Positions 3,061 through 60,486 of a stretch of 64,000 bases of DNA are shown one piece after another. Below the pieces are notes generated by a model. The model searched no databases, was not told the DNA's origin, and saw only the letters and a list, made by a program, of their open reading frames with translations. Source of the DNA: an uncultured Alphaproteobacteria bacterium (lineage in GTDB: Bacteria; Pseudomonadota; Alphaproteobacteria; Rhodobacterales; Rhodobacteraceae); assembly GCA_902537215.1 (NCBI GenBank), contig CACBAM010000002.1, forward strand, positions 62,001 through 126,000, written 5' to 3'. Positions within the stretch are counted from its first letter, which is position 1; each line of letters starts with the position of its first letter. Both the position numbers and the translations under genes were made by a program.

Positions 3061-4065
3061 TTAGTATAAATCTTTGTCAGCCTTCTCAAGGCCATCAAAA
3101 TTATCTCTATACCAATTAATTGTTTTTTTAAGTCCGATATCTAAAGATATTGATGGTTTAAAGCCAAGTTTCTTTATTTTTGAAATATCTGGACAACGCA
3201 GTTGTGTGCCTCCTATATGCTCATCTCTATTAATTATAATATCAAATTTCATCTTCATTAATAAAGATATTTGTTCCAATAATGAATTCATAGATATAGT
3301 GGTTGGATTGCCGATGTTATAGACGTTCACGCCTTCATTAAATTCAGAAATTAAATTTATCCCTTCAATAATATCATCAACATAGCAAAAGGCTCTTACG
3401 GCTTCAAGCTGTCCCTTAACGTTAATGTTAACAAAACTATCCCGGTTTTTCTCACCCTTTAAGAATTCCATTATGAATTGGGGAATTACATGTTTAAGTC
3501 CCATATCAGTGCCATAAACATTGTGAGGACGGAATATACTTATATTCATATTATTCTGCTGTCCGAAGTGATAAGAATAGTATTCCGAGTAAATTTTGCT
3601 AAGTCCGTATGAGTAGCGAGGATTTTGAACATTTGGAACAATCAAAGGCACATCTTCCGGAGTTGGTATAGTTTTACAATCTTGATAAACCTCTGCAGAG
3701 GAGGCGACGATCACCTTTTTTATTGAGTTGTTCTTAGCATATTTAAGAATATTAAAACAACCGAAAACCCCAACATCTAACACCCTCAAGGGAACAGTAT
3801 AAAAATTTTCAGTTCCATTAATTGCGGCTAAGTGAAATAGTTTGTCTATTTTGATATCTTTTAATGCAATCTCAATATCTGCATAGTTAGTAATGTCACA
3901 AGCTTTAACATTGATGCTATTAGCAAGATTGATTAACCTACCAGGATTACCCCTTGAAAAATTATCTAACACAATTACGTCGTGTCTCTCAGATAGACTT
4001 TTTGCCAAGTGGTGACCAATGAAACCACCTCCACCCGTTATCACAACAGTCTCTTTCATTGCCAT
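3061..4065 (-). CDS. NAD-dependent sugar epimerase/dehydratase
   Basis: An extended SDR of 334 residues acting on nucleotide sugars. It has the GxxGxxG cofactor loop (residues 11-17), the catalytic Ser in ASSAEVY (about 122-127) and YGLSK (Tyr153, Lys157). The C-terminal pattern RCPDISKIKKLGF with a WYR end is typical of UDP- or GDP-sugar 4-epimerases and 4,6-dehydratases. It is paralogous to the epimerase at 13989-15035. Its start overlaps the end of the upstream nucleotide-sugar dehydrogenase by 10 nt, so it is the last gene of a four-gene leftward operon. The exact sugar is not deducible. Confidence 0.85.
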   Translation of the reverse strand: MAMKETVVITGGGGFIGHHLAKSLSERHDVIVLDNFSRGNPGRLINLANSINVKACDITNYADIEIALKDIKIDKLFHLAAINGTENFYTVPLRVLDVGVFGCFNILKYAKNNSIKKVIVASSAEVYQDCKTIPTPEDVPLIVPNVQNPRYSYGLSKIYSEYYSYHFGQQNNMNISIFRPHNVYGTDMGLKHVIPQFIMEFLKGEKNRDSFVNINVKGQLEAVRAFCYVDDIIEGINLISEFNEGVNVYNIGNPTTISMNSLLEQISLLMKMKFDIIINRDEHIGGTQLRCPDISKIKKLGFKPSISLDIGLKKTINWYRDNFDGLEKADKDLY

Positions 4066-5357
4066 ACCTCAGTGAATATATTCGTAATTGTTATCTTTTC
4101 TTTGAGTGATAACACACCCCAAACATCTACTATAATGCATTTGTTATTACTTTGCCTTTCTATGAAGTTATTAAATTTTTTTGATTTATATTCAGGATGG
4201 TTGTTCAAAATAACTATCATTTCATAATTTATAGGCTGTTCATTTTGTAATAATTTTGACGTTTCAATTGACTCGTAATTCGTCATATTTTTTAAAGCTT
4301 CAGCACTATTCATAAAGTCATGTATTGTTATTTTTTCTGATATGGACGACAAGTTTTCTAATATATTGATTGATGAAGAGCCTCTAGTGTCGTTTGTAGG
4401 AGGTAAACCTTTAAAAGCTATTCCAGAAATTAATATTTTGTTTATTTGATTATTATCGACAATTTCTTTTAGCTTATTGGTAAACTTTATTTCCAGATCT
4501 CTATTATTTTCTCTTGCAGACAAAAGTGAAATCTTAGCTGGCTCATCTTTTATATTTGTAGCCAATATATAGGCGTCCTTCTCCAAGCATGGGCCTGCTA
4601 CAAAGCCAGGCTTTGAAATATAACTTCTTGGGTAATTATGATTGGCCATATTAATGACATTTTCCCCATCTAATCCAAATGATTGGGCTATAATGTTGAA
4701 TGTATTAGATATTGAAAACATTGAGTCTCGAAATGTATTATTGAAAAGCTTAATTAATTCTGCTTCCTCAAGAGAAGAACTTGACAAAACTTCGTCAGAC
4801 AAAATTTTAAATAGCATTTCAGCCTTTTTAAGCGCGGATGGAGTATTGCCAGAAACAACTTGCGGTAGTTGTTGCAGCTCAGTTAATGCTTGCCCTTCTG
4901 CAGTCCGTTCCGGACAAAAACTTACATCAATTAATTGACCATTTGAGGAATTATTAATTCTTGTGGCGATTTTCCTAGTAGTCCCTACCGGCACAGTTGA
5001 CCTTAAAACAACCAGTGTTTTTTCAGTTAAGTGGGGAATTATAGTTTCAATGCTGCTTTCTAGATGGTCCAGTCTTGGTTCATTTGAGTGTTTGAAATTA
5101 ACCGGAGTTCCTACGGTGATTATAATCGCATCATAATCAATTTTTTCAGGTATTTTTTTATAAATAAAAAGATTTTTATTAAGATGATGATTAAGAGTAT
5201 CTCCGATTCCAGGCTCATAAAAATGAGGCTTTCCCCTTGAAAGGCTATCATATATTTCGTCTGCTATCTCTACACCGTGAACAAAAAGCTTCTTTTTCAC
5301 AGCGTGTATCGCTAAGGTTAGACCTACATAACCAAGTCCAATAATACAGATTTGCAT
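4056..5357 (-). CDS. UDP-glucose/GDP-mannose dehydrogenase family protein
   Basis: A nucleotide-sugar dehydrogenase of 433 residues, oxidising a sugar C6 alcohol to the uronate with two NAD+. It has the Rossmann motif GLGYVG (residues 7-12), CPERTAEG (148-155) and the catalytic Cys257 in GPCLEKD. CPER and GPC resemble the UDP-HexNAc dehydrogenase branch more than classical Ugd. A start at 5390 is also open, but the ATG at 5357 is chosen because it places the Rossmann strand right at the N-terminus and follows an AAGAAG ribosome-binding stretch. Operon partner of the 3-dehydratase upstream and the epimerase downstream. Confidence 0.85.
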   Translation of the reverse strand: MQICIIGLGYVGLTLAIHAVKKKLFVHGVEIADEIYDSLSRGKPHFYEPGIGDTLNHHLNKNLFIYKKIPEKIDYDAIIITVGTPVNFKHSNEPRLDHLESSIETIIPHLTEKTLVVLRSTVPVGTTRKIATRINNSSNGQLIDVSFCPERTAEGQALTELQQLPQVVSGNTPSALKKAEMLFKILSDEVLSSSSLEEAELIKLFNNTFRDSMFSISNTFNIIAQSFGLDGENVINMANHNYPRSYISKPGFVAGPCLEKDAYILATNIKDEPAKISLLSARENNRDLEIKFTNKLKEIVDNNQINKILISGIAFKGLPPTNDTRGSSSINILENLSSISEKITIHDFMNSAEALKNMTNYESIETSKLLQNEQPINYEMIVILNNHPEYKSKKFNNFIERQSNNKCIIVDVWGVLSLKEKITITNIFTEVWQ

Positions 5358-5377
5358 AGCACTTCTTTTTTCCAAAT

Positions 5378-6643
5378 TTACACCTTGCAATAAATGCTCT
5401 TAAGTGCCTTGGCAAAATTCTCAAAATTAGCTTGGTTAAGCCCTGAATGTATTCCAATAAACATTGCGTTTTCCCTTATTAACCGCGAGTTTTTTAGTTT
5501 TCCGCTTACCACGTGCTTCCTATCTTTAAATCCAGGTTGATCTGGCAAGCATCCACCCATGTTTGGTCTGGTTTCAATATTAAATTTTTCAAGATGTTTA
5601 CATAGATCATTTCTATTTAGGGGGCCGTTGGGGTTTACATAAATTGGAAAGCCATAATACCCAGGTATTGTATCTTCGCTAGGATTTATTGTTGAGAGAA
5701 AATCACTATATTCAGATATTATAGATGTTAAAATTTTTGCGTTTGCTCTTCTTGTTTTATTTAATGTCTCTAATTTCTGAAGTTGTACCAGGCCCATCGC
5801 AGCTGCAAAATCAGTCATCCGAACATTGTATCCAAGAGTCTCGAAAATGTACCTTGAGTCATATTCTCCCAAACTCGGAGAAAAATGATATCTATCTTTA
5901 TAATCGATAGCTCTGCCAAACTCACGCACAGATCTCAATTTATTTGTAAGTGTCTTATCTTTACAAAAAATCATTCCTCCTTCACCAGTAGTAATATTGT
6001 GTGCTACGAAAAAACTTAATGTTGCCATGTCTCCAATCGAGCCTACTTGTTTACCTCTGTAGTAGCTACCATGGGCTTCACAACAATCTTCTATTACTAG
6101 TAAATTATTTTTTGATGCAATTTCCATGATTTCGTCCATTTGTGCTGGAATACCTAAGTTATGGACCACCATTATAGCTCTTGTCTTTTTTGATATGGCA
6201 CTTTCTATTGCCTTCGGGTCGAGATTCCAAGTTTCCAATTCAGAGTCAACATACACAGGAACTAATCCGAGTTGGTACAGGATTGAACTTACAGTAGCAA
6301 AAGTTGAAGCAGGTACTATGACCTCATCACCCATTGACAGCTTCTCAAAATCAATTAGAGAGGCAAAAGCGACTAAATTAGCTGAAGACCCTGAGTTTAC
6401 TGCTATTGCTGAACTGTCAGCAGGTAGCTTAAGATATTCCTTATAGGCTTTCTCAAATTTTTTAACATTATCGCCCTGAGATAATCTCAAATCTAACAAA
6501 CAGTCTAAAGCCGAAAAAATTTCGTTTTCGTCATACAATGGCCATCCAACGGTATGTTTAGGGTTTTTTAATGAAAAGTCATGCCTTTCGTTAAACTCCT
6601 CGCTGATTAATGATTTTATTTTTTCAAGTCTGGGTTTCAACAT
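5378..6643 (-). CDS. PLP-dependent sugar 3-dehydratase, DegT/ColD/RfbH-like
   Basis: A DegT/DnrJ/EryC1-fold protein of 421 residues. It has the PLP phosphate-binding NSGSSAN (83-89), the PLP-Asp in IEDCCEAHG (184-192) and the SFFVAHNITTGEGG loop (210-223). In sugar aminotransferases the sixth position of this loop is the Schiff-base Lys; here it is His215. ColD (GDP-4-keto-6-deoxymannose 3-dehydratase) and RfbH/E1 (CDP-sugar 3-dehydrase) carry His there. The Cys cluster that holds the 2Fe-2S of E1 is not visible, so ColD-like chemistry is more likely. It overlaps the upstream epimerase by 7 nt. Predicted role: making a 3-deoxy or 3,6-dideoxy sugar. Confidence 0.85.
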   Translation of the reverse strand: MLKPRLEKIKSLISEEFNERHDFSLKNPKHTVGWPLYDENEIFSALDCLLDLRLSQGDNVKKFEKAYKEYLKLPADSSAIAVNSGSSANLVAFASLIDFEKLSMGDEVIVPASTFATVSSILYQLGLVPVYVDSELETWNLDPKAIESAISKKTRAIMVVHNLGIPAQMDEIMEIASKNNLLVIEDCCEAHGSYYRGKQVGSIGDMATLSFFVAHNITTGEGGMIFCKDKTLTNKLRSVREFGRAIDYKDRYHFSPSLGEYDSRYIFETLGYNVRMTDFAAAMGLVQLQKLETLNKTRRANAKILTSIISEYSDFLSTINPSEDTIPGYYGFPIYVNPNGPLNRNDLCKHLEKFNIETRPNMGGCLPDQPGFKDRKHVVSGKLKNSRLIRENAMFIGIHSGLNQANFENFAKALKSIYCKV

Positions 6644-7542
6644 TTAAATTCCTCTTCTAAAAGCTTTAATAGTCCATCGTGCATATTAAACTTTGGCCTC
6701 CAGCCACTAATTTCTCTAAAACTAGAGTCGTCAAGTTTGCTTGGAGGCAGCTTAAAAGTTTTTCTTTTAATGTTATTTTCGGAATTTTGGAAAATAACAT
6801 GCCTCCCAAATTCGTGTTTCATTAATTTTCCTAACGTATCTATTATTTTCTTTATCTTTATATTTTTCCCAGAAATCATAACATGTTTTTTGGGTTCAGG
6901 CATTTTCAATATGGCTTGGATCGCATCAACAGCGTCGTCGATATATAGATAGTTTCTCGATCCTTGCAAGGAGTTGACTTTGACCACATTCTTTCCTGAT
7001 TTTAATGTTTTAATTATTTTTGGAATTAGTTGTGATGAAGTTTGATATGGCCCATAAATATTTGGAAATGTTATAATAGTTGGTCGATCCCAATTTAAGC
7101 CGGCAGCATAGGATACCAAGATTTCGGCAACAAATTTGCTGGCTGCGTAAGGATCAATATTTAATTCAGCAGTGTTAAAATATTTATTGGCAACATTTTT
7201 CACAAGAGCCCTATCTGATGAAATTAAAAAATATTTACCACCAAATTTAATCTCACTTAGTAATCTCAAATTTTTAATCGGTATTTTTACATTCTCTAAA
7301 AATGATTTTAAAGGACTGTTCAAATAGTGTTCGACAGAAACATTGCTAGCAAAGTCAATAACAAAATCGAATGGTCCACTTTCTAATATTTCTTTTTTGC
7401 AATTGTAGGTAAAATTTTTTTTTGCATGCATTAAGTGTTTACTTTTCCTGTTAACGCAAAATAGCTCATTGTCACTTTCTGCAGCTAAAAAGTGTTTCCC
7501 TAAAAACCCAGAGCCACCAAAAACTAGCATTTTTTTTTTCAT
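6637..7542 (-). CDS. NAD-dependent epimerase/dehydratase
   Basis: An extended SDR of 301 residues with GGSGFLG (9-15), a catalytic Ser in ISSDR (about 107-111) and YAASK (Tyr132, Lys136). A TTG at 7554 is in frame, but the ATG at 7542 gives the usual MKKKMLVFGG start and is chosen. It is the first gene of the leftward operon continuing into the 3-dehydratase (7-nt overlap), so it probably acts on the same nucleotide sugar. It could be a 4-epimerase or a 4-reductase. Confidence 0.82.
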   Translation of the reverse strand: MKKKMLVFGGSGFLGKHFLAAESDNELFCVNRKSKHLMHAKKNFTYNCKKEILESGPFDFVIDFASNVSVEHYLNSPLKSFLENVKIPIKNLRLLSEIKFGGKYFLISSDRALVKNVANKYFNTAELNIDPYAASKFVAEILVSYAAGLNWDRPTIITFPNIYGPYQTSSQLIPKIIKTLKSGKNVVKVNSLQGSRNYLYIDDAVDAIQAILKMPEPKKHVMISGKNIKIKKIIDTLGKLMKHEFGRHVIFQNSENNIKRKTFKLPPSKLDDSSFREISGWRPKFNMHDGLLKLLEEEFKC

Positions 7543-7816
7543 TGTCTGTCTCAAATAACAGGTCTCTTCATTAAAGATTTGAAAGTATCTTCGAGCTACA
7601 CTGGTCGTCGTAAGTTAAAACAATCTGCTTAGTGTTCTGCACCGTAGATATATAAGTTCTCTCTTTTAGTTTCAAGAATTTTTTTCCATATTTCATCTCA
7701 AAACGCAGGGCGAGGAGTGTCGAAAAATAAAAAATATGCAGGAGGAAGTATCTTATTTCTGTGAGCGTCCTGGGCTAACAGCTAACATGAAATCAAATAA
7801 CAAATTTAAAAATTGA

Positions 7817-8164
7817 TGGCTTGATTTTGTATTTCAAATAGACATGCGCAAAGATAAAGAAATTACAAGATTTTGGATTAATGGAGAGCTTGTCGTCGGC
7901 ATCAAGGGTGACCTTAGTTCGAAAGGTAAATTGCTTGGTTTTAAGTTCGGGCCATACCGGAACTCAATTATAAAGCCACCACAAGATGAAGTTATCTACT
8001 GCGCGGGTATTATGCGCGGTAATTCTTGTGAAGATTTACGGATACTAAATTGTGAAAAGCTTAGTAACGCACCCTCTAATAACGGTATTTATGGAGCAAG
8101 AAAGCTGTTGCGCTGTTTCAGAGAACCACAACAAGGATTACCGTGCCCCCTTATCTGTGTTTGA
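7817..8164 (+). pseudogene. Polysaccharide-lyase (heparin-lyase-like) C-terminal remnant
   Basis: The frame opens after a stop at 7814 and reads DFVFQIDM, then RFWINGELV, FKFGPYRNS and VIYCAGIMRG. This succession matches the C-terminal beta-jelly-roll of bacterial polysaccharide lyases (the heparin-lyase-I-like family): a strand with an F.F.I pair, a W.NGxLV strand, FKFGIYR and VYYDxIRxG. No N-terminal part is present, and the last 30 codons look out of frame, so it is a fragment. From 7543 to 7816 nothing else is recognisable. Confidence 0.5.
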
Positions 8165-8484
8165 CATGATTGTGAGAGCTTTTAAATGCATGGCATCGCA
8201 GCAAGTAGACATGTACTATATACTAAATATTCTTTTAATTGAGATTTATATGATTTTGAAAATGCTACCAGCGTATCGTCGCATTGCATAAAGATAACTA
8301 CAGGCTGAGGATAAGTACCTCATGCATGATATTTTTATCTTTTGCCATAGGCCTTAAATCTCGTTTATATTTAAAAACCTCTGACAAGGATTGCAGCTGT
8401 ATTTATTAGTAGAGAAAATTTTTTCAGGTAGCAGTTGTGAAAACCGATTAATTAAACGTGTAAAGTGGTAGAGTCTTTTTTAAA
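8165..8484. other. Stretch without a recognisable gene
   Basis: AT-rich sequence between the lyase remnant and the TPR gene. Short open frames occur but none has a recognisable motif or ribosome-binding site. Probably decayed coding DNA. Confidence 0.5.
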
Positions 8485-8910
8485 ATGCTAGCAAGCCGAG
8501 AAATAAATGAAATTAAGAAAAATCTTAAACAAGGTCAATACAGCGAAGCTGAACAAAGAGCAAAAAATACTATAAAAACTTTTCCAGATGCTTTTATTAG
8601 TTGGGAAATGTTAGGCCTCGTTTATTTAACAACCAAGAAATTTAGAGATGCAGAAAGGATATTCAAGAAGGCTTTACAATTAGCACCAAAAGCACCTAGC
8701 GTTTGGTATAATTTAGCTCAGGCCTTGTATTCTTCAGGTAATTTAAATTCTGCGATAGACGGATATAATAAGTGTATCGAATTAAAACCAGACTTCTTAA
8801 ATGCTTTTTTATTATTTGTTGGCTCAAGATTATTTTTTTTTAAATTCTTACTAAGTTTGCAGAAATTATTGAGCTCTAGATTATTATTACAAAGTAAGAG
8901 GGCATATTGA
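8485..8910 (+). CDS. Tetratricopeptide-repeat protein, probably truncated
   Basis: 141 residues. Two TPR units are clear at about residues 36-69 and 70-103, with the usual W/L/G/Y/A spacing and P at each end. After residue 108 the sequence changes abruptly to Phe/Leu-rich, low-complexity sequence encoded by T-rich runs, as expected if a frameshift in a T tract has cut off further repeats. TPR proteins in glycan loci are often scaffold parts or N-terminal domains of transferases; here only the repeats are seen. Confidence 0.55.
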   Translation: MLASREINEIKKNLKQGQYSEAEQRAKNTIKTFPDAFISWEMLGLVYLTTKKFRDAERIFKKALQLAPKAPSVWYNLAQALYSSGNLNSAIDGYNKCIELKPDFLNAFLLFVGSRLFFFKFLLSLQKLLSSRLLLQSKRAY

Positions 8911-9069
8911 AGTATTGAGTCCATCTTTAAATAGTATCGTGAAAATTATGTTTTTTAAAAAAATTATAATTAGCCCGCACTAATACAAACATATAATACT
9001 AAATAGAAGTTGTATTAATTGTCTTAACTTAATACCCTTAAGTATGAATTTTGAACTTGGAGTTTTTTA

Positions 9070-9128
9070 ATGAGTTTTAATACAAAACCATACGCAAATA
9101 AAAAAAAATAACTATAAATAACAAGATA
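9070..9128 (+). other. Displaced N-terminal segment of the haloalkane dehalogenase-like gene
   Basis: An ATG at 9070 reads [13 protein letters not shown] and then hits a stop right after a run of nine A residues (9100-9108). With one more A the frame continues ITINNKI into the downstream gene, matching the LinB N-terminus residue for residue in spacing. The gene therefore originally began here; a single-base deletion, a sequencing error or slippage at the A9 tract separates the parts. Confidence 0.75.
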
Positions 9129-9968
9129 ATGTCTTACATCGATGAAGGAGAAGGTGATGCAATCATCTTTCAGCATGGAAATCCCACATCCTCCTATCTT
9201 TGGAGAAATGTTATGCCTCATCTTGAGGGGCAGGGACGCTTAATTGCTTGTGACTTAATTGGTATGGGTGACTCAGAAAAACTTACAAATTCAGGTCCTG
9301 ATAGTTATAACTACTTCGAACATCGAGATTTTCTTTTTGCGCTATTGGAAGAATTAAATATAGGTAAACAGGTTGTCTTTGTAATCCATGATTGGGGATC
9401 AGCACTAGGATTTGATTGGTCTTTTCAAAACCAAGATAGGATCCAAGGCATAGCTTATATGGAGGGAATAGTGAGGCCTGTTACTTGGGATGAATGGCCA
9501 GAAAATGCTACAAAGGTCTTTCAAGGTTTTCGCTCCGAAGCCGGTGATAGCATGGTGCTTGATAAAAACATTTTTGTTGAAAGGGTTTTACCTTCGTCAA
9601 TCATGCGTGAGTTGTCAAAGGATGAGATGGATGAGTACCGTCGACCATTTTTAAACCCTGGGGAGGATAGAAGGCCGACCTTGAGTTGGCCAAGACAAAT
9701 ACCTATACAGGGAGAGCCTAAGAATGTTGTCGAAGTTGTTGAAAACTATAGTAAATGGCTATCGTCAAGCGATCTACCAAAGCTCTTTATAAATGCAGAC
9801 CCTGGTTCAATACTAACAGGTAAGCAAAGAGAATTCTGTCGCTCTTGGCCAAATCAGGAAGAAGTAACAGTGAAGGGAACATATTTCATGCAAGAAGATT
9901 CGCCTGATGAAATTGGTAAGGCGGTATCTAGATTTGTTTCAAAGTTAAGAAGCACAAAAACTTTCTAG
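9129..9968 (+). CDS. LinB-like haloalkane dehalogenase homologue, catalytic His replaced by Tyr
   Basis: An alpha/beta hydrolase of 279 residues from this start, or 299 if the N-terminal segment at 9070 is joined. It is strikingly similar to LinB (subfamily HLD-II). In joined numbering, which coincides with LinB, the halide-binding Asn38 (HGNPTSS), nucleophile Asp108 ([11 protein letters not shown]), Trp109 and acid Glu132 (YMEGI) are present. The base expected at His272 in the [11 protein letters not shown] neighbourhood is Tyr (codon TAT, one base from CAT). Loss of this His in the related enzyme DhaA stops hydrolysis of the alkyl-enzyme ester. It is either a decaying gene or a protein that binds covalently without turnover. 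Confidence 0.8.
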
Positions 9969-10182: not shown

Positions 10183-11013
10183 ATGAAAGAAATAATAAAG
10201 AAAACCGAGCTAAAAGATGTGTTTGAATTTTGGAACTCAGAAAGCTGTGGGGAGCGGTATGCAATTGGAGATAATAACAAGGACAAATTTATTTCGGAGT
10301 CAAACGAACGATACAGACTGGAACCTTATATAAAATCATTTGCAAATTTCGAAAATTTTAAAGGTCTCGATGTGCTAGAAATTGGGGTTGGTTTTGGTTC
10401 TGACCATAGTCAAATTGCAATGAACAAGCCAAAATCTTTAAGTGGAATAGACCTAACTGACAGAGCGATAGAGAATACAAAGATACGATTTGAAACTTTA
10501 GACTTAGAAAGCTCTTTGCGAGTGGACAATGCAGAAAATCTGTCCTTTAAATCAGGATCTTTTGACGCTATTTATTGTTGGGGTGTATTACATCATTCTC
10601 CCAACACTAAGAAGTGCTTCGAAGAAGTACACAGAGTGCTAAGGGTAAATGGCTTTGCTAAGATAATGATTTATCATAGAAATGCTCCAACCGGGTGGAT
10701 GCTCTGGGTATTGTATGCGCTTTTCAAAGGACGCCCTTTTCGGAGCTTAAATGAAATATATGCAACTTGGTTAGAGTCGCCAGGTACAAAGGCTTACAGT
10801 GTTAATGAGGGAAAAGATTTAACCAAACTTTTTAGAAAAAGTGACATAAGTGTTCAGCTGTGTTTCTCTGATCTTTTGGAGGGTGAGGTAGGTGCTCGTC
10901 ATAAAGGATTTTTATTAACGGTAGCAAAAGCATTATACCCCAGATCATTGATAAAGATGTTAGCTAAAATTTTTCCTATTGGATTATATTTAATGATAAC
11001 AGTTCATAAATAA
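10183..11013 (+). CDS. SAM-dependent class I methyltransferase
   Basis: 276 residues. Motif I is EIGVGFGSDH (66-75), the acidic end of strand 2 is Asp90, DNAENL follows at 115-120 and FDAIYCWGVLHHSP at about 127-140. All are typical of the Methyltransf_11 type. The C-terminal part has hydrophobic segments, as in methyltransferases acting on lipid-linked or sugar substrates. It lies 5' of asparagine synthetase in the glycan island; the acceptor is unknown. Confidence 0.8.
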   Translation: MKEIIKKTELKDVFEFWNSESCGERYAIGDNNKDKFISESNERYRLEPYIKSFANFENFKGLDVLEIGVGFGSDHSQIAMNKPKSLSGIDLTDRAIENTKIRFETLDLESSLRVDNAENLSFKSGSFDAIYCWGVLHHSPNTKKCFEEVHRVLRVNGFAKIMIYHRNAPTGWMLWVLYALFKGRPFRSLNEIYATWLESPGTKAYSVNEGKDLTKLFRKSDISVQLCFSDLLEGEVGARHKGFLLTVAKALYPRSLIKMLAKIFPIGLYLMITVHK

Positions 11014-11176
11014 GGACATGTTACTGCGAGCAAAAAAGTTAAGTGTAACTCTTTAATGCCATAACAATTCATAAAGATTAAAATATTGAATATTTTTATG
11101 GTAAGATAGTATTATGTGTTTCGGATAAATACGGTTTTACTTTTGAATATTAAGTTTTGTAACCAATGGTGTAAAT

Positions 11177-13117
11177 TTGTGTGGCATAGCTGGTTTATTT
11201 AGCAGTAGCGATAATAACAATAATATAAATATTAATTGGATCAAACATCGAGGACCCGATGATTCTGGCGTGTGGCGATCTATCGATCAAAAAGTTCAAT
11301 TATCACATTCCCGCTTATCCATTTTGGATCTATCATTTGCCGGACATCAACCGATGATAACGAAAGATAAGCGTGTTGTAATGGTATTTAATGGAGAAGT
11401 TTACAATTTTATTGAATTAAGGTCAGAGCTCAAAACCAGAGGTGTTGCTTTTAAAAGTACATCAGACTCTGAAGTGTTTCTAAACCTCTTTGCATTAGAT
11501 GGAATTTCTTGTTTTCGTCGGCTTAAAGGTATATTTTCAGCTGCATTTTGGGAAAGAGATAAACAGATTTTAACTGTTGTTAGAGATCCAGTTGGCGTAA
11601 AGCCACTTTATTATTCAAATATTTCGGGGGTTTTTAATTTTGCTAGTGAAATTAAGGCTCTGATTAGATCTGGATCAATAGAACCAAAATTAAACCCCTC
11701 AGCGTTGTTAACGTATTTAGGTTTTCTCTGGTCACCTGGAAAAGATACTTTATTCAAAAACATTAAAAAAGTGTTGCCGGGACACTTTATTCAAGTGAAG
11801 GACGGAAATATTATTTCGGATCAACCATACAGATCACTAAATTTTAAGAAACCTTTAGTAAATAAGAGCTTAGAAGATACCGTAAGTTCAGTTCAAGGTG
11901 CGGTACAATCTGCAGTAGAAGCTCAGTTGGTATCTGATGCGCCTTTAGGGGCTTTCCTTTCTGGTGGATTAGACTCCTCTGCAGTTGTTTCATTTGCTCA
12001 AAAGTTGAGAAACGAGCCTGGTGCAAAGAATTCAAAAAACCTTCAGTGTTTTAGTATCGAAATTGAAAGTAAATCTCTTGCCTCAGAAGGGTTTGCAGAT
12101 GACTTACCCTACGCTAAAAGGGTTGCTAAACATTTGGGAGTAGATCTTAATATTGTCAGAGCTAAAGAAGACATCATGGATAGGTTACCAGAAATGCTCT
12201 ATTATATGGATGAGCCTTGTCCAGACCCAGCCGCACTGAACACTTTACTTATTACCGAATTAGCACGGAAGGAGGGTATTAAGGTGCTTTTGTCGGGTGC
12301 CGGTGGTGATGATATTTTTACTGGATATAGGCGTCATTATGCACTTATCCAGGAGAGATGGTGGTGTAATTGGCCTATATCCGTTCGTAAAGGTTTAGAA
12401 AAAATATCGCGGGCGCTACCTTCTTATGGACCTGTAATGAGACGACTAAATAAAGCATTCAGATATGCCTCTCATGATGATAATAAGCGTCTAGTGGGTT
12501 ATTTTCTTTGGACTGAACCGAGCACCGCTCTCAATCTTTTGCATCCTGACATTAGAAACAAGGTGGCGCATGAAAATATTTATCAACCGATGCTAGAGAG
12601 TCTTAGCCACTTAAAATCAGATGAGTCACAAATAAATCGAATGTTATATTTAGAATGCAAACACTTTTTAGCAGACCATAACTTAAATTATACAGATAAA
12701 ATGGGTATGGCATCAGGAGTAGAAATAAGAGTTCCACTTTTAGATTTAGATCTCATTGACCTGGTTAATTCTATTCCAATAAATATGAAACAAAATGGTC
12801 GCATTGGTAAATATATATTGAAAAAAGCTATGGAGCCTTATTTGCCTCACGATGTAATTTATAGACCAAAAACCGGTTTTGGAGTTCCTCTAAGGCACTG
12901 GTTATCAAACATACTGGAACCTTTAGTTGAAGATACATTATCTGAAAAAAGTATATCAAAACGTGGCATATTAAATTTCAATGCGGTTAATCTTTTGCGT
13001 CAACAGGACCGAGCTGGAAAAATAGATGCTTCATATACCATTTTTTCTCTTGTATGCTTAGAGTTATGGTGTCGACAATATTTTGATGGGTTTTACCCAA
13101 TTGATTCTGTTGTTTGA
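11177..13117 (+). CDS. asnB: Asparagine synthetase (glutamine-hydrolysing), TTG start
   Basis: 646 residues. The N-terminal glutaminase domain starts with Cys2 (MCGIAGLF), followed by RGPDDSG (25-31), GEVYN (73-77) and Asp97. The synthetase domain has the ATP-binding SGGLDSS loop (262-268). Because Cys2 is the essential nucleophile after Met removal, translation must begin at the TTG at 11177; no ATG, GTG or Shine-Dalgarno fits better. Members of this family inside surface-glycan loci often amidate sugar acids or other carboxylates instead of making free asparagine, and two nucleotide-sugar dehydrogenases that would make uronates are nearby. Confidence 0.9.
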   Translation: MCGIAGLFSSSDNNNNININWIKHRGPDDSGVWRSIDQKVQLSHSRLSILDLSFAGHQPMITKDKRVVMVFNGEVYNFIELRSELKTRGVAFKSTSDSEVFLNLFALDGISCFRRLKGIFSAAFWERDKQILTVVRDPVGVKPLYYSNISGVFNFASEIKALIRSGSIEPKLNPSALLTYLGFLWSPGKDTLFKNIKKVLPGHFIQVKDGNIISDQPYRSLNFKKPLVNKSLEDTVSSVQGAVQSAVEAQLVSDAPLGAFLSGGLDSSAVVSFAQKLRNEPGAKNSKNLQCFSIEIESKSLASEGFADDLPYAKRVAKHLGVDLNIVRAKEDIMDRLPEMLYYMDEPCPDPAALNTLLITELARKEGIKVLLSGAGGDDIFTGYRRHYALIQERWWCNWPISVRKGLEKISRALPSYGPVMRRLNKAFRYASHDDNKRLVGYFLWTEPSTALNLLHPDIRNKVAHENIYQPMLESLSHLKSDESQINRMLYLECKHFLADHNLNYTDKMGMASGVEIRVPLLDLDLIDLVNSIPINMKQNGRIGKYILKKAMEPYLPHDVIYRPKTGFGVPLRHWLSNILEPLVEDTLSEKSISKRGILNFNAVNLLRQQDRAGKIDASYTIFSLVCLELWCRQYFDGFYPIDSVV

Positions 13118-13339
13118 CAATGATAAATTCTTTGGGAATCTAATTTACGACAACAAGGATCATAGAAATAAATCCAAATCGCAGTTGAAACCAAAACTTG
13201 AGTTATTGATCTGGAGCTGTGTTCATTTTTGTAATTTTTCTAAACTGATGAGTCTAAAAGTTATAAAGATCAAATTAGTAGTTAAACTTTAATAGATATG
13301 CGACTATGGTTGTATCCCGAAAAGACTAATAAACAGAAT

Positions 13340-13996
13340 TTAGATCAAACTATCTGGTAGCTTTGGAAGATCTTTAAACGCTTTCTCCACAATTTTACTA
13401 GATGGGATAATTACCACCCAAACCGTAATAACTATAATCTTAATATATACCCATAGTGTGTTGTGCTCTAAAAACCAAAGTTCCAACTGGCTTTTATATG
13501 GTATGATGTTTTCTCTGTAAAATTCCATTGGTCTCGCGCTCTTAGCTAAATAGCTCTCTTCGTCTCGAAAAACAATTGACCCAATACCTGTGAGGCCGGG
13601 ACGAATAGTATCCAATTTTAAACGAACGGACTCTGGATAATATGCGTAAGTGTTTAATACCATAGGTCGAGGTCCAACCACACTCATTTCTCCGATTAAA
13701 ATATTCCATAACTGGGGTAATTCATTTATTTTGGTTTTCCTTAGAAACCTTCCAAAAGGCAGAACTCTTGGGTCATTTTGTACTGTTATTTCACCTGCTC
13801 CGATATTCGGACTATTTTTCAACATAGTTGCAAATTTAATCAAACCGAACGAATTTCCTTTTTTGCCCGCTCTCTTTTGGACATAAAAAATTTCTCCCTC
13901 TCCTGTTACCTTTAAAATAACAACTATGATTATTAATAAGGGTGAAAGTAATGCCAATGCGGAAAGACTGAATATAATATCTAAAAATCTACTCAT
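13340..13996 (-). CDS. Priming undecaprenyl-phosphate sugar-1-phosphate transferase
   Basis: A bacterial sugar transferase of 218 residues. It has an N-terminal membrane hairpin (about 7-30), the KRAGKKG segment (41-47) and the signature LRKTKINELPQLWN...MSVVGPRP (85-111). Enzymes of this WcaJ/RfbP/PglC group start glycan assembly by moving a sugar-1-phosphate onto undecaprenyl phosphate at the inner membrane. The C-terminus carries another hydrophobic segment. It overlaps the upstream epimerase by 8 nt and is the last gene of that leftward set. Confidence 0.88.
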   Translation of the reverse strand: MSRFLDIIFSLSALALLSPLLIIIVVILKVTGEGEIFYVQKRAGKKGNSFGLIKFATMLKNSPNIGAGEITVQNDPRVLPFGRFLRKTKINELPQLWNILIGEMSVVGPRPMVLNTYAYYPESVRLKLDTIRPGLTGIGSIVFRDEESYLAKSARPMEFYRENIIPYKSQLELWFLEHNTLWVYIKIIVITVWVVIIPSSKIVEKAFKDLPKLPDSLI

Positions 13997-15035
13997 TTTT
14001 AATCATATGATTTAAAACTGCCTCTGGGGATTCAAAACCGCCTGATGTTATAGATTTACCAGAGTTAAAGAATTCACGATACCAGTCCACTGTCAAACGA
14101 ACTGCTTTTTTCCAATCAATTGATGGTGAGTAACCGAAGTCTTGCCTTGCTTTGCTAATGTCTGGACATCGTCTCGAAACAGAACCTGGGTAGGTCACCC
14201 CACTTTTATATTCTCCCGTATAATTCATCAGCTCACCAATATATTTTGTAAGAGTTTTTATATTAATTTCTTCTTGATTACCAATATGGTAAATCTCGCC
14301 CGCGGCTTTGTCACTCTCCATACTTCCTACAGTTCCTTCCACCGCATCGTCAATGAAGCAAAATGCTCGTGTCTGATCATGGCCATAAATTAAAAAAGGA
14401 GAATTATTTCCCCTAGCGAAACGTTCAACAATATGCGGAATTGCATGACCAAATCCCATTTCAGGCCCAATTATGTTCTGATAACGCACGATTGTACATT
14501 CGTAATTATATGCTTTCGCAGAGTGAAAAAAAGCAGACTCGCCATGCATTTTCGTAATCGCATATGTCCAACGAGAGTGTTTTATATCTGTAATACACAA
14601 CGGAACATCTTCTGCGGTGGGTATTGCCATGTTATATAAATCGGAGGTGCCCGCATAATTTTCACTGGAAGAAGCAAATAACAATCGTTTTATGGGATTA
14701 CGAGCAAGCCAGTCTAAAGTATTCATAGTTAGCATGGTATTCACTTTAATAACATCTTTAGGGAACTTAAGTGTTCGATTTACACCTACAACTGCTGCTA
14801 ACATGTATACTTCATCAAATCTTTTGCCAAGTTTATTGAATGCACTCATTTGAGTAAAATCATCTAAAATGGGAGTAAAGCGTCGAGATTTTTTTTTATC
14901 GCCTGATATTTTGTTCCAATTTGATCCTGCTTTGATATCCACTCCAGTAACAAAGCAGTCACCTCGATCTACCAGATATTGGATAATGTTTCTGCCAATA
15001 AAACCACCAGCACCTATTACAAGAACTTCTTTCAT
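13989..15035 (-). CDS. NAD-dependent sugar epimerase/dehydratase
   Basis: An extended SDR of 348 residues with GAGGFIG (8-14), catalytic ASSSENY (121-127) and YAITK (Tyr158, Lys162). The C-terminal RRCPDIS...GYSPS segment and the GPEMGFGHAIPH segment are shared with the epimerase at 3061-4065, making them paralogues inside one island. It lies 14 nt downstream of a nucleotide-sugar dehydrogenase and upstream of a priming transferase, so it may supply the first sugar of a glycan repeat. Confidence 0.85.
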   Translation of the reverse strand: MKEVLVIGAGGFIGRNIIQYLVDRGDCFVTGVDIKAGSNWNKISGDKKKSRRFTPILDDFTQMSAFNKLGKRFDEVYMLAAVVGVNRTLKFPKDVIKVNTMLTMNTLDWLARNPIKRLLFASSSENYAGTSDLYNMAIPTAEDVPLCITDIKHSRWTYAITKMHGESAFFHSAKAYNYECTIVRYQNIIGPEMGFGHAIPHIVERFARGNNSPFLIYGHDQTRAFCFIDDAVEGTVGSMESDKAAGEIYHIGNQEEINIKTLTKYIGELMNYTGEYKSGVTYPGSVSRRCPDISKARQDFGYSPSIDWKKAVRLTVDWYREFFNSGKSITSGGFESPEAVLNHMIKNE

Positions 15036-15049
15036 AATTTACTCCAAAT

Positions 15050-16543
15050 TCATTTTAAGTCGCCTCTACCTAAAACTGATATGTAATGTTTTGTTTGTAA
15101 TTTAGATATTTGGCCTTGATCAAGTAAACCGATTGTGTCGTATATTTTACATGCGTCAATTTCCAGAAGTTTTTTTATTGTATGCTCTTCTCTATAGACA
15201 TTGTGCCCAGTTGAAATAATGACCAAGTCTGGATCTGAATTTAAGACTTTAGAAAGATCACTTTCAATTGAACAATTTTGTTCTTCCCAGAATGTAACAA
15301 AAGGATCATGTAATAAAATCTTAGCCCCAGTATTTTTCACCAAAACAAAAAGTAACTCTACAGGTGAAAAACGAGTATCTCCAACATCACCACGATAGGA
15401 AACACCCAAAAAAGTTATTCTTTTATTACCCAAATCACCAAATTCTTGTATGAGCCGATCAAAAGCAAACTTGGGCATTTGGTCGTTAACAGAAACACTA
15501 TTTATGCTCATATCTAAATCAGATGATGATTGAAAAAAGTTTCTACGCGACCAACTTGCTAATAATGGATCTTTGGTAAGACAATAACCACCTACACCAA
15601 TACCTGGATACATCAAATTAGCATGTGTTTTTCTAACTCGAATTGCATTGACAATACTGTAAAGATCAACGCTTGCTTCTTCTGCATAGCGTGACCATTC
15701 AACTGCAAAGGCAATATTCATCGCACGGTACGAATTCTCCAAAACCTTTGCGATTTCAGTAGCATTTGTGTGTTCAAGCCTAGTTAAGTCGCAAAGAGAA
15801 GTATCAATAATAGTTTTCAAAAACATTTCAACTGCATTTGCACTCTCTAAGGTGGTGCCGGAGTAAACCCTCGGATATTCACGTATAGAGTCAATATAAT
15901 TTGGCCCTGGCATGACCCGCTCGTATGAATGGCCCAAGCGATAATATTTTAAAGACAAACCCCTCTGACTTAGCTCATTCTCAATTATGGGTTTGACTAT
16001 TTTTTCGCAAGTACCTGGTGGTACTGTTGTTTCAACTAAAATCAGTACATCTTCTTTGCAGTGAAAAGCTATGGTTTGAATAGCTGATTTAAAACCATTC
16101 AGTTCTACATTAAAACTACCTAGTGCGCCGTTTTCTTTCAACGTCTTCTTAACATCCAGGTTTATATCAACAATGACAACATCGGCATGCTTGTATGCTT
16201 TTGGATCATATGTCGCAAGAAAATTACCAAGCTTTTTTGTTCGATTAAAAAATTCCTCTATCTTTGGATCATCAGCAACCAGAGGAAAAACCCCATCATT
16301 TATAGATTTTATTTTCCAATAAGATTCTTTTTCTGCAAGGTCAACACCAATTACTGCATATTCCTCCGTTAATGAATTTGCGCAGACAAGAGACATAACG
16401 GCTCCAACAAAACCAAGGCCCTGAACGACTACTACTTTTTTTCCTCGATTGTGATTTAAAAAATTATCAATATTCTGATCATCGTTCAGAACACTGGGTA
16501 TTTGACAAACCTCTTGAGTTATTGGGTTAATTGACACTTTCAT
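15050..16543 (-). CDS. Nucleotide-sugar dehydrogenase (UDP-glucose/GDP-mannose dehydrogenase family)
   Basis: 497 residues, longer than the usual 430-450 because of an N-terminal extension of about 35 residues before the GLGFVG Rossmann motif (42-47). The catalytic Cys321 is in GIGVGGYCLTKD, and the domain-swap helix with Lys266 and Asn270 is present. It probably oxidises a UDP- or GDP-sugar to the uronate. First gene of the leftward set 16543-13340. The long N-terminus and the pattern VMPGPNYIDS separate it from classical Ugd, so the substrate is open. Confidence 0.83.
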   Translation of the reverse strand: MKVSINPITQEVCQIPSVLNDDQNIDNFLNHNRGKKVVVVQGLGFVGAVMSLVCANSLTEEYAVIGVDLAEKESYWKIKSINDGVFPLVADDPKIEEFFNRTKKLGNFLATYDPKAYKHADVVIVDINLDVKKTLKENGALGSFNVELNGFKSAIQTIAFHCKEDVLILVETTVPPGTCEKIVKPIIENELSQRGLSLKYYRLGHSYERVMPGPNYIDSIREYPRVYSGTTLESANAVEMFLKTIIDTSLCDLTRLEHTNATEIAKVLENSYRAMNIAFAVEWSRYAEEASVDLYSIVNAIRVRKTHANLMYPGIGVGGYCLTKDPLLASWSRRNFFQSSSDLDMSINSVSVNDQMPKFAFDRLIQEFGDLGNKRITFLGVSYRGDVGDTRFSPVELLFVLVKNTGAKILLHDPFVTFWEEQNCSIESDLSKVLNSDPDLVIISTGHNVYREEHTIKKLLEIDACKIYDTIGLLDQGQISKLQTKHYISVLGRGDLK

Positions 16544-17146: not shown

Positions 17147-17788
17147 TTACCAAGTAGAATGCTCTCTTTTTAATCTGTTTCTATTTTTTGATAACCACAG
17201 TCCAAGTAATATAGCCGGTCCCACTTTGATTTTTCCACTTTCGATCATCTTAAAAAATTGTTGATACTCAAAAATGTGACTCCTTATATCTTCGTTCTCA
17301 CTTGATAAGCCGGCAATGAGATTAGTGCTTTTGGGTAGTTTTACGATACCTACATATTGGTGAAAAAATTCAGTTGATATACCGGGAGAGGGGTAACTTC
17401 GAGCAACTAATTCCATTTTTTTTATATTTAAATGTGCTTCTTCTTGAGCCTCTCTTATACCCGCACTTTCAGGTGTCTCGCCTTGTCCTATTAAACCAGC
17501 AATTGGCTCTAAAACCCAAGGATTTTTGTCGCCTTTCACATAAGGACCTGTCCGAAATTGTTCAACTAATAATATTCGCTCGTTAACGGGGTCATAAGGC
17601 AAAACAATGACCGCATCGGATGAAATCAGGGCACTCCTAGTTACCACTGTGCTTCGCTCTTTATTAAACTTTTCATATGAAAGGTCATGTTCTTCAACAG
17701 AAAAAAAACCTGTATAAACAAGGCGCCTAGAATGTGAAGAAGTGTATTTACTACTTATTTCATTCAACTTGGTCTGATATTTTGACAT
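17147..17788 (-). CDS. Nudix hydrolase, ADP-ribose pyrophosphatase type (copy 2)
   Basis: 213 residues, closely similar to the protein at 1820-2464 throughout. The Nudix box (Gly98, Glu104, REAQEEAHL at 112-120) is intact, and the PSPGISTEFF segment after it is conserved. A strong Shine-Dalgarno (GGGAGAG) precedes the ATG. Both copies keep a complete active site, so both may be active while their neighbouring SDR genes decayed. Confidence 0.85.
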   Translation of the reverse strand: MSKYQTKLNEISSKYTSSHSRRLVYTGFFSVEEHDLSYEKFNKERSTVVTRSALISSDAVIVLPYDPVNERILLVEQFRTGPYVKGDKNPWVLEPIAGLIGQGETPESAGIREAQEEAHLNIKKMELVARSYPSPGISTEFFHQYVGIVKLPKSTNLIAGLSSENEDIRSHIFEYQQFFKMIESGKIKVGPAILLGLWLSKNRNRLKREHSTW

Positions 17789-23092: not shown

Positions 23093-23497
23093 TTAATCCT
23101 CATATTCTTCTCTCTTTATTAAATGCCCAGAACTAAAGTTATACATCTTAGCGTCCCTCCACTTTGAAATGTCACCGTCCCAACCCATTTCCCATAGGTC
23201 TTCAAAAGTAACTTCATCGGGTTTGTACCATTCATCAATCATGTCAGTCACATCGTCCTCTTCACAATTTGCTAGTTCTAGTGAATAGCTTCTGACATCC
23301 CATTCAAAATATTTGCTGTAGGTGATAATCGACCATCTTCTGGTACCATCCTTCCTCCCATGTCGCTTCAGATAGACATCCTGAACTTCCTGCATCAATG
23401 GAGGGCCTCTATACACAAAGCCTAGATAGAAGACTCTCTGTCGTTGAGAACCTATAGGTAGTCTTTCCCTTTCAGGTAACGTGATTACATTGGTCAT
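23093..23497 (-). CDS. Hypothetical acidic protein (copy 1 of a duplicated gene)
   Basis: 134 residues, Trp/Tyr- and Asp/Glu-rich, not recognised. Preceded by a GGAG ribosome-binding site five to eight bases before ATG. It differs from the copy at 33001-33405 at about eight positions, nearly all in the C-terminal two thirds. The duplication next to a tRNA and the small-gene context suggest a mobile-element or phage accessory gene. Confidence 0.7.
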   Translation of the reverse strand: MTNVITLPERERLPIGSQRQRVFYLGFVYRGPPLMQEVQDVYLKRHGRKDGTRRWSIITYSKYFEWDVRSYSLELANCEEDDVTDMIDEWYKPDEVTFEDLWEMGWDGDISKWRDAKMYNFSSGHLIKREEYED

Positions 23498-23574
23498 GTG
23501 TTTCTCCGCTTTAGTGATTTAGCGTTATGCAAGGCTCACAAGTTGAAAATTAAAGTGCCTTTATGTTTGGGTTT

Positions 23575-33000: not shown

Positions 33001-33405
33001 TTAATCCTCATATTCTTCTCTCTTTATTAACTGCCCAGAACTAAAGTCATACATCTTTGCATCCCTATATTTCGAAATATCTCCGTCCCAACCCATTTCC
33101 CAAAGGTCTTCAAAAGTAACTTCATCAGGTTTGTACCATTCATCAATCATGTCAGGCACATCATCCTCTTCACAATTTGCTAACTCAAGTGAATAGCTCC
33201 TGACATCCCATTCATCAAATTTGCCATAGGTAATAATCGACCATCGTCTAGTTCCCTCTTTCCTTCCATGTCGTTTCAGATATACATTCTGAACTTCCTG
33301 CATCAATGGAGGGCCTCTATACACAAAGCCTAGATAGAAGACTCTCTGTCGTTGAGAACCTATAGGTAGTCTTTCCCTTTCAGGTAACGTGATTACATTG
33401 GTCAT
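33001..33405 (-). CDS. Hypothetical acidic protein (copy 2 of a duplicated gene)
   Basis: 134 residues, not recognised, nearly the same as the product of 23093-23497. It starts MTNVITLPERERLPIG and is rich in Trp, Tyr, Asp and Glu. It lies downstream of the 73-residue gene on the same strand and shares with it a similar 5' leader. Position near the 3' end of tRNA-Ser suggests element-borne genes. Confidence 0.7.
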   Translation of the reverse strand: MTNVITLPERERLPIGSQRQRVFYLGFVYRGPPLMQEVQNVYLKRHGRKEGTRRWSIITYGKFDEWDVRSYSLELANCEEDDVPDMIDEWYKPDEVTFEDLWEMGWDGDISKYRDAKMYDFSSGQLIKREEYED

Positions 33406-33474
33406 GTGTTTCTCCGCTTTAGTGATTTAGCGTTATGCAAGGCTCACAAGTTGAAAATTAAAGTGCCTTTATGT
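33406..33474 (-). promoter_or_regulatory. Leader with AAGGC/GCCTT inverted repeat, shared by adjacent genes
   Basis: The region before the 134-residue gene has AAGGC (33439-33443) and GCCTT (33465-33469) around a conserved ACAAGTTG segment and ends in CTAAAGCGGAG before the ATG (all read on the appropriate strand). The leader of the 73-residue gene has the same parts in the same order at 33740-33769. The left repeat copy carries it too (23498-23566). Confidence 0.5.
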
Positions 33475-33482
33475 TTGGGTTT

Positions 33483-58621: not shown

Positions 58622-59322
58622 TGTTAGAAGTAACTGATCTAAATGCATATTATGGAAAAAGCCATATTCTTAGGGGTGTAAACTTAAAAATAGAAAATGG
58701 CGAAATTGTTTCTTTGCTTGGAAGAAATGGTGTGGGGCGATCAACGACATGCAAAGCCATAATGGGTGAAGTTGAGCCCATAGGTTCAATCAAGTTCAAT
58801 GGCGCCGAATTGGCTGGCAAAAAGGCTTTTGAAGTTGCCAACGCGGGGCTTGGGTATGTCCCTGAAAACAGAGATATTTTTCCTGGCTTAACAACGCGGC
58901 AAAATTTAGAGTTAGGAATAAAATCAGGGCAAGATATGGCAAACTCTAGGTGGTCAATAGATGATATGTTTAATCTTTTTGAAAACCTTAAAAATCGCGC
59001 TGATGTTGAGGCATCGTTCCTATCCGGAGGTGAGCAACAAATGCTTACTATGTGTAGAACATTGATGGGTGACCCAGAAGTTATAATGATCGATGAACCT
59101 ACTGAGGGTTTAAGTCCCCAAATGACAACAAGAGTAGCAGATTTACTAAACGAAATAAGTAGCAGGGGCGTGTCAATACTATTGGTCGAACAAAAACTCG
59201 CTATTGCGATGAAAATCAGTCATCGCGTGTATGTGATGGGTCATGGGCAGATTGTTTTTGAAGGGACTCCAAAGGAGCTAGACAAAAGAGAAGATATTAG
59301 AAAAGAGTGGCTTGAAGTATAA
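58621..59322 (+). CDS. livF: ABC transporter ATPase LivF, variant Walker A
   Basis: 233 residues. Walker A reads GRNGVGRST (34-42): the ATP-binding Lys is Arg40. The signature LSGGEQQ and Walker B VIMIDEPTEGLS are normal. The start overlaps the LivG stop (TAATG). Paired with LivG, one composite ATP site would use both non-standard motifs and the other both standard ones. Confidence 0.9.
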   Translation: MLEVTDLNAYYGKSHILRGVNLKIENGEIVSLLGRNGVGRSTTCKAIMGEVEPIGSIKFNGAELAGKKAFEVANAGLGYVPENRDIFPGLTTRQNLELGIKSGQDMANSRWSIDDMFNLFENLKNRADVEASFLSGGEQQMLTMCRTLMGDPEVIMIDEPTEGLSPQMTTRVADLLNEISSRGVSILLVEQKLAIAMKISHRVYVMGHGQIVFEGTPKELDKREDIRKEWLEV

Positions 59323-59325
59323 CTA

Positions 59326-60486
59326 TTAAATTAACGAGTAAGATGTTGCCCTAAAATCTTCTGCGATTGTTACATAACCACCTATATATTGGGTCATGAT
59401 AATACCAGTTAGATGGTTTTCTCTGTCGACCCAAAAATAAGTACTGGCCGCTCCGGACCAACCAAACTCTCCATTTTCAGTAAGGCTCATAGCGAGTCCT
59501 TTATCATTCATAACTCTACCGATCAGGTTCCATCCGTACCCAGATAATGCTATTGGCCCGAGTCTTAAAGGTAACATCTGGTCAGAAATTCTATTTGTTA
59601 ACATGAAATCGTGCATGGTTTTTGAGATCAATTGTGTGCCGTTTTTATCTTTTCCGCTTAACAGGAAATTACAAAAAAGTTGATAATCGTCAATTGTTGA
59701 AAAAAGACCAGTTCCTCCTCTTAGGTTTATAAATTCACCATTTGAAGGATGGCTTTTTTCTGCATCAACCAACTTTAAAGGGGCTTGTTGAAATGATATC
59801 AGTTTGTTTGCATCTGTGGCACCATGCATAGGCATGATCTTTGTAGCATTTGCCTTGCTTACGTTGAACGCTGTATCTTTCATTTCCAAAGGAGCTAAAA
59901 TTTGTTCACGCAAAATGTCATTGAGTTTTTTATTCTCAACAACTTCTAAGAGCCTTCCAATGACATCTGTGGCGACCGAGTATCTCCACGCCTCTCCTGG
60001 CTGGAACGCTAAGGGTAAAGTTGCAATTTTATCTACCATTTCTTCTAAAGAAATATCTGAATCATTTAAAATATTTTCTTGTTGATAAAACTGAGCCACT
60101 GAACAACCCAGATTAAAATTATAAGAAAGGCCAGCCGTATGGGTCAGGAGATCCGCTAAGGTAATTGGTCTTTTTAACCTTTCTAATTGTCCGTCGGATC
60201 TCAAAACTTTTAAATATTTGAAAGATGGAATAAATTCTTGAACAGTTGAGTATAGGCTTAGTTTACAAGCCTCGATAAGTCGTATTGCTGCGACGGATAC
60301 TATCGGTTTGGTCATAGAATATATACGATATATCTGACCTGGCTTCAAAGTGGTTTTATTTTCAATATCACTGTATCCATGTACATCCTTTGATACAACT
60401 TTATTGAAATGCCTTATTTCCCATTCAAGACCTGCTATAAGACCCTTATCTACATATCTTTTTGCCACTCGAGAAAATTGATCCAC
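59326..60486 (-). CDS. Serine hydrolase of the beta-lactamase/esterase family
   Basis: 386 residues. SxxK motif YSMTKPIVSVAA with the nucleophile Ser, Tyr in WRYSVATDVIGRLLE, and a late GWSGAASTYFWVD. These are class C-like esterase/transesterase features (EstB type); no signal peptide is seen, arguing against a periplasmic beta-lactamase. Starts with GTG, preceded by AAGGA. Likely hydrolyses a carboxylic ester, perhaps providing acids for the CoA ligases. Converges with LivF across three bases. Confidence 0.85.
   Translation of the reverse strand: MDQFSRVAKRYVDKGLIAGLEWEIRHFNKVVSKDVHGYSDIENKTTLKPGQIYRIYSMTKPIVSVAAIRLIEACKLSLYSTVQEFIPSFKYLKVLRSDGQLERLKRPITLADLLTHTAGLSYNFNLGCSVAQFYQQENILNDSDISLEEMVDKIATLPLAFQPGEAWRYSVATDVIGRLLEVVENKKLNDILREQILAPLEMKDTAFNVSKANATKIMPMHGATDANKLISFQQAPLKLVDAEKSHPSNGEFINLRGGTGLFSTIDDYQLFCNFLLSGKDKNGTQLISKTMHDFMLTNRISDQMLPLRLGPIALSGYGWNLIGRVMNDKGLAMSLTENGEFGWSGAASTYFWVDRENHLTGIIMTQYIGGYVTIAEDFRATSYSLI

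Follow-up and report, generated by a model that had tools for sequence, protein, structure and literature searches.

Reading Frames and Catalytic Residues

A haloalkane dehalogenase gene that keeps its nucleophile but carries Tyr in place of the catalytic His, in a frame broken at a run of nine A, raises the question of whether it encodes a natural counterpart of HaloTag, possibly made by slippage on the A tract, or is simply a gene in decay. This gene lies in a stretch of 64,000 nucleotides (G000:C2:62001-126000, hereafter the window; 37% G+C) belonging to the 2.11 Mb genome (44 contigs, 91.9% complete) of an uncultured bacterium, probably marine. The features discussed below are listed in Table 1.

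Table 1. Position, strand and supporting evidence of the features at the dehalogenase locus (numbering of the window).
Feature	Position	Strand	Evidence
Polysaccharide lyase 3' remnant with two in-frame stops	7691..8185	+	350-aa G002 homologue, PF14099
TPR-methyltransferase 5' fragment, 109 codons	8485..8811	+	494 aa in G002
Ectopic segment: divergent-neighbour stub, upstream region, dehalogenase body without native stop	8811..9951	+	blastn, alignment
5' stub of the divergent DMSP-lyase-like cupin gene	8811..8924	-	alignment over gene start; homologues match PF16867
First frame, 13 codons and TAA	9070..9111	+	sequence
Nine-A tract, frame break; length differs in open-frame copies	9100..9108	+	sequence, alignment
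279-aa open frame, LinB-like from residue 21	9129..9968	+	phmmer, NF002938
21-bp stretch identical in both own copies, mosaic switch point	9189..9209	+	alignment
TAT (Tyr) replacing the His272 codon	9882..9884	+	sequence; His in 60/60 other homologues

The frame opened by the ATG at 9070 breaks at the A tract, which lies 30 bases past the start codon, and is closed by the TAA at 9109-9111; the second frame is closed upstream by another TAA (9099-9101) and remains open from the ATG at 9129 up to its stop. The sequence and the phmmer search agree on this arrangement, which had been proposed in the original prediction. The match of the 279-aa product to the NCBIfam equivalog NF002938 ("haloalkane dehalogenase"; 417.8 bits, cut-off 241) is far beyond chance, and among solved structures the highest phmmer score was that of 7pw1 (482 bits), followed by 2o2h (446) and LinB, 1mj5 (418); these solved structures establish the fold of the protein. 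Query residues 1-275 align to residues 21-295 of 1mj5, the two lengths being equal, and the LinB numbering was taken from this alignment. The residues predicted at LinB positions are all in place, that is, Asn38 (halide-binding, AAT at 9180), Asp108 (nucleophile, GAT at 9390), Trp109 (halide-binding, TGG at 9393) and Glu132 (acid, GAG at 9462), and the predicted replacement of the base His272 by Tyr was confirmed as well.

The window copy thus belongs to the sequence family of the LinB/DmbA-type dehalogenases (7pw1, 2o2h and 1mj5), presumably subfamily HLD-II, with which it shares full-length homology from residue 21, the nucleophile, the acid and both halide-binding residues. It differs from them in the Tyr at the base position, in the loss of the native stop and in the start of the frame, which is cut off, so that a working enzyme's His base and single open frame from the N-terminus are absent. 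The window has five further runs of nine to ten A or T, which lie within four other long listed open frames, one run being close to the listed start of its frame; because such runs sit in other open frames, the tract at 9100-9108 is not special in itself, and the idea of a special A tract was rejected.

Homologues and the Residue at Position 272

A dehalogenase homologue was retrieved in 10 of the 22 genomes of the genus, the own genome included, for a total of 11 copies; the other 12 gave no match, many of them being only 58-90% complete. The ten copies besides that of the window have open frames with no inner stops. Their start regions were all aligned to the window, six of them being also read in frame, and the length of the A tract in the open-frame copies differs from that of the window copy. 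The check that had been suggested for the gene, i.e., its inspection in related genomes, gave a uniform answer, with ten open copies, one of them in the own genome, all carrying His.

A total of 62 loci were compared, i.e., the window copy and 61 others, 60 of which span position 272. They came from the 20 matches listed for a first set, the 30 listed for the matches of 78 genomes and all those of a third set (13/13), weaker homologues falling outside this sample; L029-L037 were dropped from the residue count since they lie on the same contigs as L010-L018, and L043, which ends before position 272, is one of the 61 and was excluded from the analysis of invariant columns. Among the matches listed, position 272 is His in all 60 other homologues covering it, and Tyr was found in none of them (0/60), the other genomes compared belonging to other species. 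The 60 long homologues share 33 invariant columns, and the window copy deviates from them at a single one, the base.

The search of plasmid records returned 414 matches, LinB genes included, with a best identity of 63%, none of them close to the window copy. Carriage on a virus found no support: no relative was found in viral_contigs, and one phage match was partial, covering 43% of the query at 26.2% identity.

A Second Copy at the Genus-Wide Site

The own genome harbors a second copy of the gene (G000:C2:59329-60216) about 12 kb upstream of the window copy, just outside the window. It encodes 295 aa in an open frame, has His at position 272 and retains all five catalytic residues. Moreover, it is located at the site where all the relatives compared (9/9) carry theirs, adjoined by a divergent gene in 9/9 of them and followed by a 201-aa gene in 8/9. 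The window copy is therefore an extra, ectopic copy. The existence of the second His-bearing copy, as well as the end of the locus homology at ~9951 (see below), lay outside the view of the original prediction.

At this genus-wide site, the dehalogenase gene and a cupin gene resembling DMSP lyases are arranged head to head, both in the own genome (G000:C2:58613-60216) and in nine relatives (L045, L047 and L049-L055). In the four copies tested, the own one included, the cupin gene is full-length and matches the DMSP-lyase family PF16867. The literature search found no paper combining DMSP lyase and haloalkane dehalogenase.

The Ectopic Segment and Its Surroundings

As revealed by blastn and alignment, the homology of the window to the dehalogenase locus is limited to about 8811-9951 (1.14 kb), with an identity of 86.5% to G014 (8816-9950), 83.0% to G003 (8813-9951) and 75.5% to the own second copy (8816-9951). 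Within this segment lie the beginning of the cupin gene, as a 5' stub, then the upstream region of the dehalogenase gene and this gene itself as far as its last codons; since the homology ends at ~9951, the last codons and the stop of the window copy are not native.

On its left side, the segment abuts a TPR-methyltransferase gene that is truncated. The adjacent stretch (7691-8811) is 92.7% identical to G002, where a 350-aa polysaccharide-lyase-like gene is present together with a 494-aa TPR-methyltransferase gene. In the window, the lyase remnant has lost its 5' part, and its two in-frame stops precede the natural end; the TPR gene can be followed for 109 codons, to the point where the dehalogenase segment begins, and its remainder was not found within the 74 kb compared. 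Genes for sugar biosynthesis flank both sides (3061-7554 and 10183-16543), and no match above 34% identity to them was found in the stretches of the relatives compared. The surroundings of the window copy are, then, a row of broken genes within a variable region.

Two copies of a NUDIX gene, both on the minus strand (1820-2464 and 17147-17788) and 76.4% identical in DNA over ~870 bp, flank the sugar-biosynthesis region, as though this region had been brought in by an event that also duplicated its edge.

Reciprocal Mosaic of the Two Copies

The two own copies were scored at the sites where G003 and G002 agree with each other and differ from G014. In the first part of the segment (8811-9188), the window copy is of the G003/G002 type at 86 of 92 sites (one of the G014 type, five of neither), and in the second part (9210-9951) it is of the G014 type at 138 of 168 (17 of the G003 type, 13 of neither). 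The own second copy shows the opposite pattern, being of the G014 type at 74/92 sites in the part matching 8811-9188 (nine G003-type, nine neither) and of the G003 type at 164/168 in the part matching 9210-9951 (two G014-type, two neither). The 21-bp stretch at the switch point holds two letters absent from both reference types. At the own syntenic locus, with positions counted from the start of the window, the G014-type patch extends from about -3300 to about -2550; it contains some G003-type sites and is flanked on either side by predominantly G003-type sequence. Hence, window positions 8811-9951 and G000:C2 ~58700-60216 combine two allele types in opposite order, as reciprocal mosaics.

The simplest reading of this pattern is an exchange between the two own copies; alternatively, each copy may have exchanged sequence independently with an outside donor at this position. 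It is unlikely that a mis-join in the assembly swapped the two copies' halves, because the longest exact run common to both is 23 bp. An amplification chimera of the own second copy was rejected, the identity being only 75.5%. On the simplest reading, the mosaic is a small but clear example of gene copies exchanging sequence within an uncultured alphaproteobacterium.

Selection on the Window Copy

In the comparison between the window copy and its nearest homologue, that of G014, the 253 codons of the body gave a dS of 0.281 and a dN of 0.0246, that is, a ratio of 0.088. The ratios of the open-copy pairs were 0.082, 0.081, 0.129, 0.109, 0.054, 0.049, 0.047 and 0.040, dS being high in several cases; pairs with saturated dS, one open-copy pair among them, gave no ratio. 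The window value is not raised above those of the open-copy pairs (0.040-0.129 where computable), and the neutral dN/dS that had been expected to mark a simple pseudogene is not what these codons exhibit.

When the changes were polarised with the nine other copies, 14 silent and 6 replacing ones fell on the window branch, 12 and 4 on the G014 branch, and 11 and 5 were ambiguous; the silent-to-replacing proportion does not differ between the two branches (Fisher p = 1.0). Neutrality along the whole window branch would predict ~52 replacing changes beside the 14 silent ones, which rejects a long-dead pseudogene, given the 6 counted. The neutral share of this branch was estimated at 3% (upper bound 18%), or at 4% (upper bound 14%) if all the ambiguous changes are assigned to the window copy. 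The neighbouring remnants, compared with G002, have dN/dS values of 0.277 (lyase) and 0.201 (TPR fragment), both above that of the dehalogenase body; on raw counts, only the lyase can be told apart from the body (p = 0.010; TPR fragment, p = 0.14).

These data indicate that the window copy was constrained until recently, and they are compatible with a recent inactivation as well as with a continued constraint. Any decay must be recent, because the ratio to the nearest homologue is as low as 0.088.

Decay or Function

The body of evidence argues for the window copy being a recently inactivated spare copy of the haloalkane dehalogenase gene, to which a probability of about 0.9 can be assigned. 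The lesions, i.e., the broken frame, the lost base and the lost native end, are found where the homologues are open, and the ectopic site, the truncated neighbours, the open His-bearing copy elsewhere in the genome and the reciprocal mosaic point in the same direction. On the opposite side stand the low dN/dS, the Fisher test and the single change among the 33 invariant columns, which concerns the base only. The ectopic copy would have been freed from selection because the other copy does the work, and would then have lost its N-terminal frame at the A tract and its catalytic base through the His-to-Tyr change, no order of the two events being implied. As it stands, the locus would yield a 13-residue peptide; reinitiation at 9129 might give, at most, a protein lacking both the first 20 residues and the base needed to release the alkyl-enzyme, and the copy probably has no function. 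Since the own genome keeps an open, His-bearing copy and the spare one has lost frame and base, the case resembles ordinary gene decay rather than a HaloTag that arose in nature.

Among the other explanations, the length of the A tract might be an error of amplification, sequencing or assembly, in which case the frame would be open and Tyr would still replace the base. It is generally known that long A tracts are error-prone, and the homologous copies are open through the same tract; however, the five other runs of this kind in the window sit in long open frames, and a tract error cannot account for the Tyr at 272, the lost native end and the broken neighbours, which makes such an error improbable. 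Even less credit can be given to a phase-variable dehalogenase switched by the tract. The position of the tract near the start and its length, different from that of the open-frame copies, would suit such a switch, but the ten other genus copies are all open and, without the base, no turnover is expected even of a copy in the "on" state.

The original prediction had left the choice between decay and a slippage-made protein that binds haloalkanes covalently in nature, and it is the former that is supported. According to the binder reading, slippage of the RNA polymerase on the A tract would produce some putative full-length protein, forming an alkyl-enzyme at Asp108 with no hydrolysis; in its most elaborate form, the copy of this one lineage would have become a single-turnover covalent trap or sensor of alkyl halides, made at low level beside the normal enzyme. 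The nucleophile is indeed kept together with Asn38, Trp109 and Glu132, the base is replaced, and the body shows no relaxed constraint. HaloTag, an engineered DhaA, is built on a replacement at 272, as stated in a passage of PMC9119580 that prints the change the wrong way round; the window copy shares with it the replaced residue and the retained nucleophile, but it has Tyr and not the engineered residue, its frame is broken and its product is putative. As for slippage, in bacteria it is reported in PMC5009743 for runs of nine A or T, with 12-50% corrected transcripts in some endosymbiont genes, and the abstract of PMC5574713 states that transcription insertions prevail in A and T runs. The slippage-rescued genes of insect endosymbionts (PMC5009743) likewise belong to AT-rich genomes and have their frame interrupted at a long run of A; unlike them, the window copy resides in a 2.1-Mb genome with a second open copy and has also lost a catalytic residue. 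Against the binder, its Tyr is not common to the relatives, it is placed amid broken genes and its native end is lost; because none of the 60 homologues has Tyr and the A tract is not special, this reading is left with no positive support and must be regarded as very improbable, and the trap or sensor beside the normal enzyme is equally improbable. The literature search, most subscription papers being outside its reach, found no natural dehalogenase without the base; were the binder real, it would provide a natural precedent for a dehalogenase serving as a covalent trap.

The window copy is best regarded as a pseudogene in a family already known, and its reading as a natural HaloTag is not supported. 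As a pseudogene it is of little consequence, except that it removes an apparent case of a HaloTag in nature and carries a lesson: when a catalytic residue is lost in one genome, a second copy should be looked for before inferring a function.

Other Features of the Window

Two SAM-V riboswitch matches are located on the minus strand at 23501-23569 and 33409-33477, each scoring 41.4 bits (gathering score 41). Three bases separate the end of each match from an ORF of 134 aa (23093-23497 and 33001-33405, both on the minus strand); these two ORFs are near-identical and have no Pfam match.
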